Shown here in pieces: positions 35,887 through 42,505 of a stretch of 42,505 nucleotides of DNA (positions are counted from its first letter, which is position 1; every line of letters starts with the position of its first letter). This DNA comes from Candidatus Zixiibacteriota bacterium (GTDB lineage: Bacteria; Zixibacteria; MSB-5A5; CAIYYT01). The notes below the pieces were generated by a model. That model searched no databases, was not told the origin of the DNA, and worked only from the letters and a program-made list of their open reading frames with translations. Position numbers and translations under genes: made by a program. The stretch spans positions 1-42,505 of the forward strand of contig JADYYF010000129.1 in assembly GCA_020853795.1 (NCBI GenBank), in the 5' to 3' direction.

Positions 35887-36393
35887 ATGAATAAACTCGG
35901 TTCTCTCATAGCGGTCGTCGTCCTGCTTACAGCGGCTGCGCTTTCCGCCACCGCCAGTGCGCCGGAACCCGCGGCACCGCAGGCGGCGGCACCGCCGGCT
36001 GCCGCGGCGGGCAAGTCGCCGCAGTCCGGAAATACACGCGCTGCGGCCGATGATTACACGATTCTCTGGTACGTCGTCGCCGCCGGCGGCACCAATAGCA
36101 CGTCGAACAACTACCGCCTGCGGGGCACGGCCGCGCAGACGGCCGTCGGCGATGTGCAATCGACACTCTACCGCGTCCATCAGGGTTTCTGGCAGAATCT
36201 GGTCGCGCCCTGTTTGGCGGGCGATGCTGACGGCAACTCCAGTGTGACGATCTCCGACGCCGTCTATTTGGTCAATTACATCTTCGCCGGCGGACGGCCG
36301 CCGGTCACCGCTTGTGGTGGCGATCCCGACGGCAACGGCATGATCACCATTTCCGATGTCGTCTTCCTCACGCGCTACATCTTCCTGTATTAG
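35887..36393 (+). CDS. Small secreted protein with two dockerin-type calcium repeats
   Basis: A 168-residue protein. A signal peptide (1-24) is followed by an Ala/Pro-rich linker (25-48), then a ~55-residue segment YTILWYVVAAGGTNS and YRLRGTAAQTAVGD ending HQGFW, a motif seen in secreted proteins of this bacterial group. Residues 112-133 (DADGNSSVTISDAVYLVNYIF) and 145-167 (DPDGNGMITISDVVFLTRYIF) are paired F-hand calcium loops of a type I-like dockerin. Dockerins bind cohesins in cellulosomes, but single dockerins are common in non-cellulolytic bacteria where the partner is unknown. No cohesin is seen in the window. Two Cys (109, 143) flank the first repeat and could form a disulfide. The terminator-like hairpin follows the stop. 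Confidence 0.82.
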   Translation: MNKLGSLIAVVVLLTAAALSATASAPEPAAPQAAAPPAAAAGKSPQSGNTRAAADDYTILWYVVAAGGTNSTSNNYRLRGTAAQTAVGDVQSTLYRVHQGFWQNLVAPCLAGDADGNSSVTISDAVYLVNYIFAGGRPPVTACGGDPDGNGMITISDVVFLTRYIFLY

Positions 36394-36419
36394 TCGCGCG
36401 CCGTCCCAACTTCACGTCT

Positions 36420-36445
36420 CGCCGCCGACCACCGGGTCGGCGGCG
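36420..36445 (+). terminator. Hairpin terminator after the dockerin-repeat gene
   Basis: A perfect 11-bp GC-rich stem (36420-36430 with 36435-36445) with a 4-nt loop lies 27 bp after the stop codon. Only a short, interrupted T stretch follows (GTTTCTT at 36452-36458), so efficiency is uncertain. Confidence 0.6.
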
Positions 36446-36491
36446 CGCGGCGTTTCTTGCCATCATTCTGCTTGCGCAGCCGCGTTGGTTG

Positions 36492-36497
36492 TATAAT
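36492..36497 (+). promoter_or_regulatory. Consensus -10 box upstream of the Ser/Thr kinase gene
   Basis: A perfect TATAAT between the terminator hairpin and the kinase start, 60 bp before the GTG. The hexamer 17 bp upstream (TGCTTG, 36469-36474) is a poor -35. Position after a terminator supports separate transcription of the kinase. Confidence 0.45.
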
Positions 36498-36557
36498 CTC
36501 TCGACACCGGGTGGTCGCCATCCACCAATAGACCGAAGTGCCAACAAGGAAATGTGC

Positions 36558-39143
36558 GTGAGTCCTGCCGACGCGTTCGAAAATCTCGATCCGACCCGCA
36601 TCGCCAAACCGGCGGTGACGGCCATTGCGCGTTATCGCGTCATCGACAAGCTTGGCGCGGGCGGCATGGGCGAAGTCTATCTGGCGTTCGATCCCAAGTT
36701 ACAGCGGAACGTTGCGATCAAACTTCTTCCTCCCGGCCTCGCTGATGACCTGGACACGCGCACCCGCTTTGTCCGCGAAGCGCAGACGGCCGCCGCCCTC
36801 AATCATCCCAACGTGATCACCATCTTTGAAATCGACGAGCACGAGAACCGCTACTTCATTGCCATGGAGTATGTCGAAGGCACTTCGCTGCGCGATCTGA
36901 TCAAGCATGCGCCGCTCGAATTACCGCAGGTTCTCGATCTGGTCCAGCAGATTTGCGCCGGTCTCGCGGCCGCTCACGAACGCGATATCATCCATCGCGA
37001 CATCAAGCCGGCCAACATCCTTGTAACGGCCAAGGGTAGGGTCAAGATTCTCGACTTCGGATTGGCGCGCTACCAGACCGTCTCCGGACTGACCTCCACC
37101 GGTGTTCGTCTCGGCACGATTACCTACATGTCACCCGAGCAGGCGCAGGGCTACGAAGTTGATAATCGCTCCGACATTTTCTCGCTCGGCGTGCTGATCT
37201 TCGAGATGCTCACCGGCAAATCGCCGTTTAAACGCGACACCGAGGTCGCCACTTTGTTGGCAATCCTGCAGCAACCGGCGCCCGCTCTGAACGAGTTGCG
37301 CCCCGGTCTGCCGCCACAATGGCAGGCGATCCTCGATCGCTGCCTGCACAAGGAGCGCGAATTGCGCTACAATAGTATCGAGGCGCTCATCGCAGACGTC
37401 AACCTGCTCGGAGCGACAACTGCCCCGCCCGCAGCCGTGGCGGCAGCGACACCGGGTGCACCGTCGCGGATATCCGGCATCGATACCAGCAGCGTCACGC
37501 GCACGGCCCTGGGCGCCAAGCGCGCGATCGCCGTGCTGCCCTTCGAGAATCTCGGCACCACCGAACACGATTATTTTGCCGACGGCATCACCGATGAAGT
37601 CACCACCAGCCTCGCCAAAATCCGCTCGCTGAAAGTCATCTCCAACAATTCCGCCCGCCACTTTTCCGCCAAGGAGAAGAGCGTAGCGGCCATCGCCGCC
37701 GAGCTGGGCGTCGAGTACTTGCTGACCGCCACGATTCGCTGGGACAATTCGCAATCCCCGTCGCGCTTCCGCCTGAGCTGCAAGCTGGTCGATGCCAAAG
37801 ATGAATCGTACCTCTGGGCGGAGTCCTACGACCGGGTGCTCGATCAGATTTTCGCCGTGCAATCGGAGCTGGCCGCCGAAGTCACGCAGGCCCTTGGCGT
37901 CGCGCTGGCAACCCCGGAGCTGGAAGGTCTGGCCAAGACGCCGACGCAGAATCTCGAAGCTTATGATTTCTATTTGCGGGGCGCCGAATTTTTCCCGCGC
38001 AGCACCAGGTCCGAAGACATCACGCGCGCCATCACGCTGTACGAACAGGCCGTTGCGCTCGACCCGAATTTTGCCCTCGCGCACGTCCGACTCGCGCTGG
38101 CGCATTCCACGATGTACTGGTTCTTCCATGATCGCACACCGGCCCGCATTGCGCGGGCCAAGGCCGCCGTCGACGAAGCCGTTCGCGCTGCGCCGCAATT
38201 GCCGGAAACGCATCTTGCCCTCGGCTACTACCACTATTACGGCCGCAAGGACTACGTGCAGGCGCTCGAGGAATTCGCGCTTGCCGGAAAGGGCCGCCCC
38301 AACGATTCGAGTCTGCTGGGCGCGATTGGATTCATTCAGCGCCGCCTCGGTCTTTGGAATGAGGCGCTGCGCAACATCCGCAAGGCCGCCGAACTCGATC
38401 CGCGCTCGGCGCTGCTGGCCGCCGAATTCGGCAACACGTTGATGTTGATGCGGCAGTACGATACCGCGATCGCGCAATTCGACCGCGCCATCTGGCTGGC
38501 GCCCGACTGGGTTGACGTCTACGCCCGCAAAGCGCACTCGCTCTATCTGCGGGACGGCGACGCGGACAAGGCCGCGACAGTCTTCCGCGAAGCGCAAGGC
38601 AAAATCAATCCGCCGGAAATGGTGATCGAATGGTCGCTGCTGGATCTCTTCGTCGCGTTCTGCGACAACGATCTCGAGCGGGCGATGGAGGCGCTGGCGG
38701 TCGACGACACCGAATTGGAACTGCACTTTATCGACAAAGGCCGGCTGGCGTTTCGTGCCGGCCGCCCGCACGAAGCCCGCTCGTACTTCGAGTCGGCGCG
38801 CGTGCTCCTCGAAACCAAACTCAAAACGAATCCCGACGATGCCCGCTATCTGGCCAACTACGGTATTGCCTGCGCCGGTCTGGGTCGCCGCGATATCGCG
38901 ATTGCCTCCGGTCAGAAAGCGACCGCGCTCTTCCCTTACGACAAGGACCAGGTCTTCGCCGTCGTCTACCGCGAAACGCTGGCCCTGATCTACCTGATGC
39001 TCGGAGAAATCGAGTCGGCCGCGGCGGAATTGCGCTTCCTGCTCTCCGTCCCGTCGTACGTCTCGAAAGCGCTCTTGCTTGGTGCGGTGGATTTCGCAGC
39101 CCTGCGGCACGATCCCTCATTCCAGCAACTCATGCGCGAATAG
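36558..39143 (+). CDS. Ser/Thr protein kinase fused to TolB/FlgO-like and TPR domains
   Basis: An 861-residue protein. GTG 36558 is preferred because AAGGA (36546-36550) is 7 nt upstream; the in-frame ATG at 36552 is too close to it. Kinase domain ~25-285: LGAGGMGEVY loop, K55 in VAIK, HRDIKPANIL with D148, DFG with D166, and SPEQA. A ~35-residue linker without a membrane helix leads to a TolB/FlgO-like domain (~320-450) starting AIAVLPFENLG, then FADGITDEVTTSLAKI and ELGVEYLLTATIRW. The rest (~465-861) is a TPR array with ALDPNFALAHVRLALAHS and ELDPRSALLAAEFGNTL. All active-site residues are present. Such proteins appear to be cytoplasmic signalling hubs; the target is unknown. Confidence 0.9.
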   Translation: MSPADAFENLDPTRIAKPAVTAIARYRVIDKLGAGGMGEVYLAFDPKLQRNVAIKLLPPGLADDLDTRTRFVREAQTAAALNHPNVITIFEIDEHENRYFIAMEYVEGTSLRDLIKHAPLELPQVLDLVQQICAGLAAAHERDIIHRDIKPANILVTAKGRVKILDFGLARYQTVSGLTSTGVRLGTITYMSPEQAQGYEVDNRSDIFSLGVLIFEMLTGKSPFKRDTEVATLLAILQQPAPALNELRPGLPPQWQAILDRCLHKERELRYNSIEALIADVNLLGATTAPPAAVAAATPGAPSRISGIDTSSVTRTALGAKRAIAVLPFENLGTTEHDYFADGITDEVTTSLAKIRSLKVISNNSARHFSAKEKSVAAIAAELGVEYLLTATIRWDNSQSPSRFRLSCKLVDAKDESYLWAESYDRVLDQIFAVQSELAAEVTQALGVALATPELEGLAKTPTQNLEAYDFYLRGAEFFPRSTRSEDITRAITLYEQAVALDPNFALAHVRLALAHSTMYWFFHDRTPARIARAKAAVDEAVRAAPQLPETHLALGYYHYYGRKDYVQALEEFALAGKGRPNDSSLLGAIGFIQRRLGLWNEALRNIRKAAELDPRSALLAAEFGNTLMLMRQYDTAIAQFDRAIWLAPDWVDVYARKAHSLYLRDGDADKAATVFREAQGKINPPEMVIEWSLLDLFVAFCDNDLERAMEALAVDDTELELHFIDKGRLAFRAGRPHEARSYFESARVLLETKLKTNPDDARYLANYGIACAGLGRRDIAIASGQKATALFPYDKDQVFAVVYRETLALIYLMLGEIESAAAELRFLLSVPSYVSKALLLGAVDFAALRHDPSFQQLMRE

Positions 39144-39198: not shown

Positions 39199-39316
39199 CA
39201 TCAGAGGATTGGGCGCACCGCTATTCCCGCCTCTTCGCCACGATTTTGACTTTTTAACTTCTCAACTTTGGCTATATTAGTGGGGTATTGGGCTTCAACG
39301 TTTGGAGGAGGATCGA

Positions 39317-39637
39317 ATGACAGAGATTCATGCCAACGGCCGTACACTGCAACTCAACGAAGAAGGCTTCCTGACCAGTCCGGCCGAATGGAATGAGACC
39401 GTGGCCGCTGCGCTCGCCAAAGCGCAGGAGGGCCTGGACACTCTGACGCCGGAGCACTGGGCTGTCATCAACTTCATCCGCGATCATTACCTCCAGACTA
39501 ACCTCGCGCCGATGGTGCGCGCAATCTGCAAGAACACCGGCCTGCCCTTGAAACGCATCTACGAGCTCTTTCCGTCCGGCCCGGCGAAAGGCGCTTGCAA
39601 GCTTGCCGGCCTGCCCAAACCGGACGGCTGCGTTTAA
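39317..39637 (+). CDS. dsrC: DsrC-type sulfur carrier / redox partner protein
   Basis: A 106-residue protein from ATG 39317, with a strong ribosome site GGAGGAGG (39304-39311) 5 nt upstream. It begins MTEIHANGRTLQLNEEGFL and contains TPEHWAVINFIRDHYLQT. The C-terminal arm GPAKGACKLAGLPKPDGCV carries both signature cysteines, C94 and the penultimate C105, eleven residues apart. TusE proteins of the tRNA-thiolation relay lack the first of these; both together define DsrC proper, which can form an internal disulfide or trisulfide. In sulfate reducers DsrC is the substrate of DsrAB and is re-reduced by DsrMKJOP. Here it leads an operon with DsrM-like and DsrK-like genes (21-bp gap, then an 8-bp overlap), but no dsrAB, dsrJ, dsrO or dsrP is seen. 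Confidence 0.93.
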   Translation: MTEIHANGRTLQLNEEGFLTSPAEWNETVAAALAKAQEGLDTLTPEHWAVINFIRDHYLQTNLAPMVRAICKNTGLPLKRIYELFPSGPAKGACKLAGLPKPDGCV

Positions 39638-39658
39638 CCGCGGACACTTAGCCTCTCT

Positions 39659-40288
39659 ATGGACTTGCCCCGTCTACTTGTCGTCCTCAGCGCGGCATTC
39701 GCACTACTCGTCTTGACGATTCACTATTTCCGAGCACGGCGCTGGGGGGTCAAGCCGGTCTACGCCAAGATTCAGGGCACGCCGCGGCAGGCGCTGATCT
39801 ACACCTTCACCGCCGGCATGATGCCCTGGAGCAAGGAGAGCGCTTCCAAACATCTGCCGACCTTCATCGTCGGAATCATCTTCCACCTTGCCGTCGTGGC
39901 GGCGGTGGTGACGCTTCTGGCCGCAATCTTTGTATGGACATTGCCGTCGTTGTTGAAGTCGGTCCTGCTGGCAACGCTGTTCGCCGGTCTCGCCTGCGGT
40001 CTCGGATTATTTGTCAAGCGCATGGTTGTCGGCTATCTGCGCGCCATCAGCGTCCCCGATGATTTCGTCGCCAATCTCCTGGTGAACCTCTTTATGATCA
40101 ATGCGGCGGTCAACCTCATCGCCGGCGTGTCGACGGTCTTCTTCGTGACGGCGATCGTGCTGTTCGCCTATATCCCTTTCGGCAAGATTCGCCATTGCTG
40201 GTTCTTCTTCTGCAGCCGCCTGCTCTTCGCAGAATTCTACGGTTACCGCGGAGCCTTGCCGCCGGCGCAACAGGTGCACCATGACTGA
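39659..40288 (+). CDS. DsrM/NarI-like cytochrome b-type membrane subunit
   Basis: A 209-residue protein with about five membrane helices (roughly 5-22, 68-92, 100-120, 138-160 and 158-175). SKHLPTFIVGIIFHLAVV has H65 and H76 eleven residues apart, a spacing that fits b-heme ligands of the NarI/DsrM/TmcC family. PFGKIRHCWFFF near the end (H179) is the family's C-terminal signature. A fourth His (H22) is in the first helix. The usual pair of ligands for the second heme is not obvious, so heme content may be reduced. It should pass electrons between the quinone pool and the DsrK-like protein, whose ATG overlaps its stop by 8 bp. At 209 residues it is shorter than DsrM of sulfate reducers. Confidence 0.75.
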   Translation: MDLPRLLVVLSAAFALLVLTIHYFRARRWGVKPVYAKIQGTPRQALIYTFTAGMMPWSKESASKHLPTFIVGIIFHLAVVAAVVTLLAAIFVWTLPSLLKSVLLATLFAGLACGLGLFVKRMVVGYLRAISVPDDFVANLLVNLFMINAAVNLIAGVSTVFFVTAIVLFAYIPFGKIRHCWFFFCSRLLFAEFYGYRGALPPAQQVHHD

Positions 40289-41618
40289 GAACAACGCCTG
40301 CCCGATTGACGCCTTCCAGCAACGGCTCGCGCAACTCGACGAGACAGCTCTCGATCAGGCGCGCGCCACGCTGGTCAGCAAATGGAGCTACGCGGCCGAG
40401 GTGTATGCGCGCGCCTGCGTCCACTGCGGACTCTGCTCCGATTCGTGCCACTACTTCCTTATCGATCCGTCCAAGGAATCGGTGCCGGCCTACCGCCTGA
40501 AATTGGTGACGGATGTATTTGCATGCCATCAGTCAAAATCGCGGAAGATCTCCGGCGCCCGCGAGCTTGATCGCAACACTGTCGACGAATGGATCGACTG
40601 CCTTTTCGGTCGTTGCACACTCTGCAATCGCTGCGGTCTGAATTGCTCCGTCGGAATCAACATCGCACAGATGATTCGCATCGGTCGCAGCGTGCTCGCG
40701 GCCAGCCGCCTGGTGCCGCCGGAACTGCAGTCCACCGTCGATGCCGCCGTCAACACCGGCAACAACATGGCAATCTCTCGCGAGGAGTGGTTCGAGACGA
40801 TCGATTGGCTGAACGGAGAACTGCAGCAGGAGGTCGGCGATCCACAGGCCTGCCTGCCGCTCGACCGCGCCGGCGCCACTATCCTCTACGCCGTTAATCC
40901 GCGCGAGGTCAAGTTCTTCCCGCTCTCGCTGCTGGCCGCTGCCAAGATCTTTCATACCGCCGGCGAGAACTGGACCTTCTCAAAGGAGTATTACGACGTC
41001 ACCAATTACGCGCTGTTCAGCGGCGACGATACGATCGGCGGGATGCTTTCCAGTCGTCTGATCGAGACCGCGCGCAAGCTGGGCGTGCGCACTCTCGTGC
41101 TCGGCGAATGCGGCCACGGCTTCAAGGCTACGCGCTGGGATGCGCCCGAATGGCTGGGACAAACGCCCGATATCGAGATCAAGAGCGTTCTGGAGGTCGT
41201 TGAAGACTATATCCGTCAGGGCCGGATCCGCCTTGATCCCAGACTCAACAGCAAGCGCGTCACGCTGCACGACCCCTGTAATCTCGTTCGCAACGGTGGT
41301 ATCGTCGAGCAGTCGCGTGCCATTCTCAAGGCCGGCGTCAGCGACTTCGTCGAAATGATTCCCAACCGCCTGCAGAACTACTGCTGTGGCGGCGGCGGCG
41401 GACAGCTCTCGATGACCCGCTACGCCAAACGCCGGCTCGCCGCCGGCAAGGTCAAGGCCGACCAGATCGCCGCCACCGGCGCCAAGATCGTCGTTGCGCC
41501 CTGCCACAACTGCATCGATCAACTATCGGAGTTGAATCGAGATTACAAACTGGGGGTGGAAGTGAAGACGGTGTGTGAGATGGTGGCGGATGCGATCGTC
41601 GGCACGCCGGCGTCTTAG
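40281..41618 (+). CDS. DsrK/HdrD-like CCG-domain iron-sulfur protein
   Basis: A 445-residue protein. Two ferredoxin-type 4Fe-4S sites: CVHCGLCSDSC (C46, 49, 52, 56) and CTLCNRCGLNC (C112, 115, 118, 122). The C-terminal CCG site is complete: C333 in HDPCNL, C368-C369 in YCCGGGGG, and C408/C411 in CHNC; it would bind the non-cubane [4Fe-4S] cluster that reduces disulfides in HdrB/HdrD, and probably in DsrK/TmcB. An earlier half-site around LGECGHGFKAT is incomplete. No membrane helix; it should sit on the cytoplasmic side of the DsrM-like subunit. The natural substrate is the oxidised C94/C105 pair of the DsrC encoded first in the operon (inference from family and gene order). TmcB or a generic HdrD-like protein are alternative names. 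Confidence 0.88.
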   Translation: MTENNACPIDAFQQRLAQLDETALDQARATLVSKWSYAAEVYARACVHCGLCSDSCHYFLIDPSKESVPAYRLKLVTDVFACHQSKSRKISGARELDRNTVDEWIDCLFGRCTLCNRCGLNCSVGINIAQMIRIGRSVLAASRLVPPELQSTVDAAVNTGNNMAISREEWFETIDWLNGELQQEVGDPQACLPLDRAGATILYAVNPREVKFFPLSLLAAAKIFHTAGENWTFSKEYYDVTNYALFSGDDTIGGMLSSRLIETARKLGVRTLVLGECGHGFKATRWDAPEWLGQTPDIEIKSVLEVVEDYIRQGRIRLDPRLNSKRVTLHDPCNLVRNGGIVEQSRAILKAGVSDFVEMIPNRLQNYCCGGGGGQLSMTRYAKRRLAAGKVKADQIAATGAKIVVAPCHNCIDQLSELNRDYKLGVEVKTVCEMVADAIVGTPAS

Positions 41619-42505
41619 CTGCCGGTAACCCGCGCCGCTTTGCGGCTTGCAACGATCTCGCCGACCGCATTCACCGCATGATGAATTTCCGCTTCGGTCG
41701 TAAACGGTCCGAGCCCGAACCGCACCGTGCCATGAATCTTGTCGGTACCCAACTGCTCGTGCACACGCGGCGCGCAGTGCAGCCCGGTGCGACAAGCGAT
41801 ATTGTAGTCGACATCGAGGATCGTTCCGGTGTCGCCCGCTTCGAGATTTTCGATATTGAACGCCAGTACGCCGATGTGATTGGCCAGATCATCCTGGCAG
41901 TACATCACAACGCCGTCGACATTGCGCAGACCATCGCGCAGGATCTTCAGCAGCCGCGTTTCTTCCCGATGCACGTTGTCCATGCCCCGCGCCTGCAGCC
42001 ACTTGAGACCGGCGTTGAGACCGGCGATGCCCGGCAGATTTGGCGTGCCGTATTCGAGCCGGTACGGATATTCGTCGAGATGGCGCCGCACCGCCGAACG
42101 CACACCGGTGCCGCCGGCGCGCGTGTGGCGAATTTCGACGTGCTCGCAGACATACAATCCCCCGATGCCCATCGGCCCCATCAGTGACTTGTGTCCGGTA
42201 AAGGCCACAACGTCGATGTAATCGGCCTGCACGTCGATCGGCAGTTTCCCCGCCGTTTGGGAAGCATCCACCACCAGCAGGATGCCGCGCTCGCGGCAGG
42301 CGCGTCCAATCTCGCGGATCGGTTGCACCGTGCCGATGACGTTGGAGCCATGATTGACCGCAACGACCTTGGTGTTGATGCGGAATTTGCGGATGATGTC
42401 GTCTGGATCGACGAATCCCTTTGCGTCGAACGGCACATAGTCGACTTCGACCGCCTGCTCCTCGTAGAGGTGATGAAGCGGCCGCAGCACGGAATTGTGT
42501 TCGAG
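41615..42505 (-). CDS. Cysteine desulfurase family protein (class V aminotransferase), 5' end outside window
   Basis: The frame is open to the right edge, so the first ~90 residues are missing; the first visible residues are LEHNSVLRPL, a conserved segment. Further motifs are HGSNVIGTVQPI, VDASQTAGKLPIDVQ, the PLP-lysine motif FTGHKSLMGPMGIGGLYV, GTPNLPGIAGLNAG, and RTGLHCAPRVHEQLGT with the Cys expected to carry the persulfide. The ending GTVRFGLGPFTTEAEI fits the group of cysteine desulfurase family proteins separate from IscS/SufS. It removes sulfur from cysteine (or a related substrate) to give a persulfide. It converges on the DsrK-like gene, their stop codons overlapping by 3 bp in TTAG. 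A role in loading DsrC with sulfur is possible but unsupported. Confidence 0.88.
   Translation of the reverse strand, partial: LEHNSVLRPLHHLYEEQAVEVDYVPFDAKGFVDPDDIIRKFRINTKVVAVNHGSNVIGTVQPIREIGRACRERGILLVVDASQTAGKLPIDVQADYIDVVAFTGHKSLMGPMGIGGLYVCEHVEIRHTRAGGTGVRSAVRRHLDEYPYRLEYGTPNLPGIAGLNAGLKWLQARGMDNVHREETRLLKILRDGLRNVDGVVMYCQDDLANHIGVLAFNIENLEAGDTGTILDVDYNIACRTGLHCAPRVHEQLGTDKIHGTVRFGLGPFTTEAEIHHAVNAVGEIVASRKAARVTGS

Follow-up and report, generated by a model that had tools for sequence, protein, structure and literature searches.

A dsrC operon with a linked cysteine desulfurase in bacteria without dissimilatory sulfite reductase: a possible quinone-linked persulfide reductase

A two-cysteine DsrC, a NarI-like membrane subunit and a CCG-domain iron–sulfur protein are encoded together, with a cysteine desulfurase as their persistent neighbour and with intact catalytic residues, in bacteria in whose tested genomes no sulfite reductase was found. 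From these observations we infer a four-gene sulfane-sulfur module, which we read, tentatively, as a quinone-linked persulfide reductase, the transfer of sulfur, the release of H2S and the direction of electron flow being deduced from the gene content.

RESULTS

The locus

The window, that is, the whole stretch of 42,505 nucleotides analysed, is the entire contig C129 of an assembly of 215 contigs (3.56 Mb; 99.93% complete, 0.84% contaminated). The genes for DsrC, the membrane subunit and the CCG protein are packed tightly on the + strand at 39317–41618, the start of the CCG gene overlapping the end of the membrane-subunit gene, and profile matches and direct reading showed all three to be real and intact where a preliminary description of this DNA had placed them. 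The features of the locus are as follows.

39296–39319, + strand: ribosome-binding site GGAGGAGG and ATG start of dsrC (direct sequence reading)
39317–39637, + strand: dsrC, 106 aa, CysB Cys94, CysA Cys105, KPDGCV tail (PF04358/TIGR03342, alignments)
39659–40288, + strand: NarI-like membrane subunit, 209 aa, five TM helices (alignments, AlphaFold2, Foldseek)
40281–41618, + strand: CCG-domain iron–sulfur protein of the TmcB/HmcF/DsrK/HdrD superfamily, 445 aa (Pfam CCG, Fer4_8 and Fer4_17; NCBIfam; tree)
41615–42505, − strand: cysteine desulfurase family protein of the TIGR01977 type, 5′ end missing (motifs, profiles, conserved adjacency)

The strong translation site attributed to dsrC was read in the sequence as GGAGGAGG-ATCGA-ATG, and a search for a sigma-70-type promoter before dsrC gave no match. 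The stop codons of the desulfurase and CCG genes overlap, the two genes being convergent in the window, and the 5′ end of the desulfurase gene is missing, window and contig ending at the same point. A protein kinase with TPR repeats is encoded immediately upstream of the operon (36312–39143, + strand) and is not a conserved neighbour.

Distribution and sulfur genes of the carriers

Scanning 84,980 species genomes yielded 465 relatives of the CCG protein, and the best 80 loci were studied. Among these best 80 of 465, the order dsrC–membrane subunit–CCG gene was found in 70 of the 73 loci on contigs that extended far enough, three loci (L037, L066 and L110) having no dsrC upstream; because it is conserved across lineages, the three-gene set is not a chance arrangement. 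The carriers are labelled Zixibacteria (including L032, L033, L038, L040, L051 and L074), Aminicenantes, Holophagaceae, other Acidobacteriota, Bacteroidales, Eisenbacteria, Fermentibacteria, Latescibacterota and Planctomycetota, and they include the cultured Geothrix limicola (L101, Holophagaceae); the count of phyla is uncertain and the labels of metagenome-assembled genomes are doubtful, as three near-identical loci (L086, L087 and L090) stand under three phylum names.

Within the Zixibacteria, the operon occurred in 11 of 133 genomes, spread over five family groups. A NIR_SIR domain (siroheme sulfite reductase) was found in none of the 11, compared with 52 of the 122 others (Fisher p = 0.007, uncorrected for relatedness), and none of the 11 was among the 44 Zixibacteria genomes with AprA over the cut-off; within the genus g56, one species (G089) carries the operon without dsrAB and another (G090) has dsrAB. 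The window's genome contains no NIR_SIR domain of any type and, for AprA, only a weak 28-bit flavoprotein match. TusA was absent from all 11 operon genomes, the window's included, and DsrE was absent from eight of the 11 in total, again including the window's genome. Outside the Zixibacteria, a DsrA match at E ≤ 0.001 was found in none of the 50 other operon genomes among the best 80 of 465 loci, with a model that also catches assimilatory enzymes in control genomes. The negative gene searches had positive controls in other genomes. Lacking NIR_SIR, AprA, TusA and DsrE, the host thus does not reduce sulfate or sulfite and does not possess the classical sulfur relay. The preliminary view that it is not a classical sulfate reducer is upheld: dsrAB was searched for elsewhere in the genome and did not occur, and operon genomes without dsrA numbered 11 of 11 in the Zixibacteria and 50 of 50 beyond them. 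The classical Dsr pathway was therefore rejected for want of NIR_SIR and AprA, and the Tus relay for want of TusA and DsrE in the window's genome.

DsrC

The operon DsrC scored 123 bits against PF04358 and 106 bits against TIGR03342 (cut-off 53.5), and reached 76 bits against the NCBIfam TusE equivalog cut-off of 191. Both redox cysteines noticed earlier were located in the alignment, CysA as the penultimate residue (Cys105) and CysB 11 residues earlier (Cys94), which is the two-cysteine dissimilatory form, and a profile search found one DsrC encoded in the window's genome. Among the 67 aligned operon DsrCs from the best 80 of 465 loci, CysA and the C-terminal tail KP[DE]GCV were present in all 67, a third cysteine, Cys71, in 66 and CysB in 62; the DsrCs linked to dsrAB in Zixibacteria and two solved DsrCs of the Desulfovibrio type instead end in KPTGCV. 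The two-cysteine form has been paired with DsrAB in the same genome, CysB being almost always replaced in genomes without DsrAB (PMC3397948). The DsrC of the window does not obey that pairing, and the operon DsrC family is a large exception to the CysB rule.

The five DsrCs without CysB (L039, L048, L050, L053 and L062) have alanine at this position and belong to one clade on the tree of CCG proteins, which was used because the DsrC tree (106 columns) was too short and too poorly resolved for a test of monophyly. No CysA–CysB disulfide is possible in these five, which weakens the disulfide step of the mechanism proposed below. The lineage is labelled Aminicenantes/Acidobacteriota and has GAAK in place of GACK; an adjacent desulfurase is also missing in three of its five loci.

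Membrane subunit

The membrane subunit gave no Pfam match and weak HmcE/TmcC scores. In the alignment of 75 subunits from the best 80 of 465 loci, His76 and His179 were invariant (75/75) and His65 was present in 67/75; no fourth conserved His column was found in it, so that these three alone are widely conserved, as against the four expected for two hemes b. The AlphaFold2 model (pLDDT 86.5) has five TM helices, and the first eight PDB matches returned by Foldseek were all NarI (probability 1.00, TM about 0.5), with E-values of 0.045 or weaker, the support coming from their rank. The fold and helix number of the model thus agree with a b cytochrome of the NarI/DsrM type. The histidine pattern points to one bis-His heme b as likely, a second heme being unproven, and with a single secure bis-His pair, transfer of electrons to quinone can be assumed less confidently than for DsrM.

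CCG protein

Two CX2CX2CX3C motifs together with C333, C368–C369 and C408xxC411 (one full CCG motif) and a PF02754 score of 43 bits identify the third protein as a CCG catalytic protein of the HdrD/DsrK type. These cysteines were invariant in 79 relatives from the best 80 of 465 (one X at one position), in keeping with the complete catalytic set reported before, and Cys277 was likewise conserved in the alignment. HmcF (300 bits, cut-off 750) and TmcB (297 bits, cut-off 735) were the top-scoring NCBIfam families, though both equivalog cut-offs lay far above the scores. The DsrK model NF045796 gave 223 bits (cut-off 400), compared with 737 bits for the separate, true DsrK of sulfate-reducing Zixibacteria. 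The names DsrM-like and DsrK-like given in the preliminary description are thus loose, the scores being closer to HmcF/TmcB and HmcE/TmcC than to DsrK.

In the tree, the 79 operon CCG proteins from the best 80 of 465 loci fell on one side of a branch with an SH-aLRT value of 93, outside the DsrK branch. Since they are monophyletic and apart from true DsrK, they belong on the TmcB/HmcF side of the family; judged by these sequence relationships, the membrane/CCG pair is of a TmcCB/HmcEF-like lineage and is not DsrMK proper. Their sister group consists of CCG proteins of sulfate-reducing Zixibacteria, mostly with a fused C-terminal receiver domain (NCBIfam match DVU0259); the genes for those in L124 and L129 share a region with dsrC, and some lie beside dsr clusters. 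A PDB sequence search with the operon CCG protein returned one weak match, and no second CCG protein of its kind was found in the window's genome. Two receiver-fused, DVU0259-like examples from sulfate-reducing Zixibacteria, at L124:3622–5577 (− strand) and L125:16316–18079 (+ strand), have a TmcC-like membrane partner; such proteins are redox enzymes carrying their own signalling domain.

Cysteine desulfurase

The statement that no sulfur-transfer genes lie near the operon did not stand, as a cysteine desulfurase abuts it. The fragment in the window, about three quarters of the protein, scored 307 bits against TIGR01977, and full-length relatives adjacent to the operon scored 395–451 bits, over the cut-off of 377. 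Together with the PLP lysine in TGHKS and the active cysteine in RTGLHC of the window's desulfurase, these scores place it among the TIGR01977 cysteine desulfurases; R[ST]GL[HQ]C variants of the active-site motif were found in sequences that were read directly.

Among the best 80 of 465 loci, the desulfurase adjoined the operon in 62 of the 76 with enough sequence, being convergent in 36, co-directional downstream in 22 and co-directional upstream in four, in three of which it lay within about 100 bases of dsrC. At least six changes of orientation were mapped on the CCG tree among the desulfurase-bearing loci. Passive synteny would not keep the linkage through repeated rearrangement, and its survival thus indicates that the genes share a function. 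In the other 14 of these 76 loci (again among the best 80 of 465), no desulfurase was adjacent, and 10 flanking proteins from nine of the 14 shared no common family. Other class V aminotransferase (Aminotran_5)/SufS-like genes exist in the same genomes beside that of the operon desulfurase, which was not seen at the dsr-cluster loci of sulfate-reducing Zixibacteria. No further constant neighbour was found among the ORFs within up to 10 kb, the other clusters being antisense shadows of the operon genes or limited to related lineages.

DISCUSSION

Because the desulfurase is the constant neighbour, sulfane sulfur loaded onto DsrC is indicated as the substrate, and the following scenario is put forward for its reduction. 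The TIGR01977 desulfurase would strip the sulfur from L-cysteine and transfer it, without an intermediate carrier, onto Cys105 of DsrC, forming a persulfide. Cys94 would then attack the persulfide, releasing H2S and leaving a Cys94–Cys105 disulfide on DsrC; where Cys94 is missing, in one small lineage, direct reduction of the persulfide would have to fall to the complex or to another thiol. Finally, the non-cubane cluster of the CCG protein would re-reduce DsrC with electrons that the b-type membrane subunit would relay from the quinol pool, making DsrC a DsrAB-free analogue of its own role in sulfite reduction. The first and last steps are chemically precedented, since in vitro IscS and cysteine persulfurate CysA of the A. 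vinosum DsrC, CysA being required, and DsrK binds DsrC (PMC3397948). The earlier idea is supported in part: the genes make up a DsrC redox module linked to quinone, and the organism reduces neither sulfate nor sulfite. Least secure in the proposal is which way the electrons flow. Menaquinol reduction of a disulfide may be thermodynamically unfavourable. The main objections besides are the CysB-less lineage, the 14 loci without an adjacent desulfurase and the uncertain heme content; furthermore, the desulfurase of the window, being convergent, is not co-transcribed with the operon.

The same linkage could instead serve sulfur delivery, with the desulfurase loading DsrC as it would TusE, DsrC passing the sulfur to a biosynthetic acceptor (tRNA thiolation, Fe–S or another cofactor) and the membrane/CCG pair merely resetting oxidised DsrC molecules. 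An invariant CysA and a CysB that is dispensable in one lineage recall TusE, and TusE of Escherichia coli receives cysteine-derived sulfur (PMC3397948). However, with TusA absent and DsrE mostly absent, the classical relay to DsrC/TusE, including the DsrE/TusBCD intermediates, is missing in most operon Zixibacteria, CysB is kept in 62 of the 67 DsrCs from the best 80 of 465 loci, the respiratory-type CCG/b-heme pair is as well conserved as DsrC and no acceptor enzyme is found among the constant neighbours, and we regard delivery as unlikely, though deserving of some weight.

HdrD-type enzymes are reversible, and the complex might instead oxidise reduced or persulfurated DsrC and send the electrons to the quinone pool, disposing of electrons from sulfide or thiols while the desulfurase supplies or recycles sulfur. 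A comparable role has been proposed for DsrMKJOP of sulfur oxidisers, which would turn persulfurated DsrC into a trisulfide with electrons passing to quinone (PMC6018796). The genomes offer no DsrAB, AprA or DsrEFH route by which oxidised sulfur could be processed, and sulfur from a desulfurase is already oxidised (S0) and fits reduction better, which makes this direction rather improbable. The general thiol redox valve suggested in the preliminary description, in which the DsrC disulfide/dithiol couple would balance the cytosolic thiol and quinone states and the desulfurase would be adjacent by chance, accounts for the same three-gene core without dsrAB. It has lost ground, and we give it a low probability, because the desulfurase is the one constant neighbour, its adjacency persists through at least six orientation changes and a lineage without CysB exists.

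A role in selenium trafficking, with the TIGR01977 enzyme acting as a selenocysteine lyase and DsrC as the selenium carrier, is very improbable: the family's namesake, EF2568, is a predicted selenocysteine lyase (PMC2276186) and SelD exceeded the cut-off in 16 of 24 operon genomes, but the module is present in the eight without true SelD, including Geothrix limicola and single-chromosome Aminicenantes and Bacteroidales assemblies, and the SelD of the window's genome is itself joined to a different NifS-like domain. A selenium role was rejected on the eight SelD-less genomes. A functionless remnant of a lost Dsr pathway, to which the nearest CCG relatives, the receiver-fused proteins of sulfate-reducing Zixibacteria, some beside dsr clusters, might point, is scarcely credible and largely refuted already by conservation, given the intact catalytic residues, the distinct DsrC tail signature, the monophyletic CCG clade over many lineages and a desulfurase partner unseen at dsr-cluster loci.

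The proposed persulfide reductase resembles DsrC–DsrMK(JOP) in its two-cysteine DsrC, CCG iron–sulfur catalytic subunit and NarI-like b-type membrane subunit, and differs in lacking DsrAB, AprA and DsrJOP, in a CCG protein outside the DsrK clade, in the tail KPDGCV rather than KPTGCV and in its cysteine desulfurase partner. With TmcCB/HmcEF of the Desulfovibrio type it shares the best NCBIfam matches of both subunits and a short membrane subunit, whereas dsrC stands first in the operon, the conserved set includes no multiheme cytochrome gene and the scores stay far under the equivalog cut-offs. A cysteine desulfurase and a DsrC/TusE-family carrier are also found in the TusABCDE relay (IscS–TusA–TusBCD–TusE–MnmA), but here TusA is absent, the DsrE family is mostly absent, CysB is kept and a quinone-linked CCG/b-heme pair is added. 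The receiver-fused, DVU0259-type pair of sulfate-reducing Zixibacteria, the sister CCG clade with about 40–45% identity and the same membrane–CCG order, is unlike the operon in its C-terminal receiver domain, its dsrAB/aprA genomes and its lack of a desulfurase. A large survey of DsrMK mentions a few DsrMK assemblies without DsrAB and concerns the DsrMK clade (PMC10504309), and no description of DsrC, DsrK and a cysteine desulfurase in combination was found in the open-access literature. The component families are known; that literature yielded no account of how they are combined here, without DsrAB and over so broad a range. Somewhat more guardedly than the function itself, we suggest that this may be a widespread, undescribed respiratory or redox module: a desulfurase dedicated to it would supply sulfane sulfur to the two-cysteine DsrC, and the quinone pool would drive the reduction of that sulfur to H2S.

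A DsrC with two cysteines has so far been taken to mark sulfur metabolism based on DsrAB, and many lineages retain one in the absence of dissimilatory sulfite reductase, alongside a CCG/b-heme complex and a desulfurase. Matches to DsrC or DsrK-like proteins alone are thus poor proof of sulfate or sulfur respiration in metagenomes. If the proposal is true, the module represents a branch of DsrC energy metabolism that does without DsrAB, in lineages without sulfate respiration, and it may contribute biogenic H2S that surveys of dsrAB overlook. The cultured carrier Geothrix limicola makes it an experimental entry to the role of DsrC without DsrAB.

Two further protein types were observed. Proteins about 220 aa long in which two DsrC-like domains stand in tandem are encoded at L127:2661–3308 (− strand), L128:5385–6035 (+ strand) and many other places, mainly in dsrAB-bearing Zixibacteria genomes and often in several copies; they keep the GACK/GACR cysteine and lack the C-terminal CysA, and near their genes is found a DsrC with Tyr at CysB and the tail GCL, next to another DsrK-like gene. 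In the window's genome, one 766-aa frame (G000:C44:20333–22429) joins a NifS-like domain to SelD, with similar fusions in G001, G002, G003 and G013, and in several relatives the SelD frame is interrupted by a single TGA, which would be expected if the protein contains selenocysteine.
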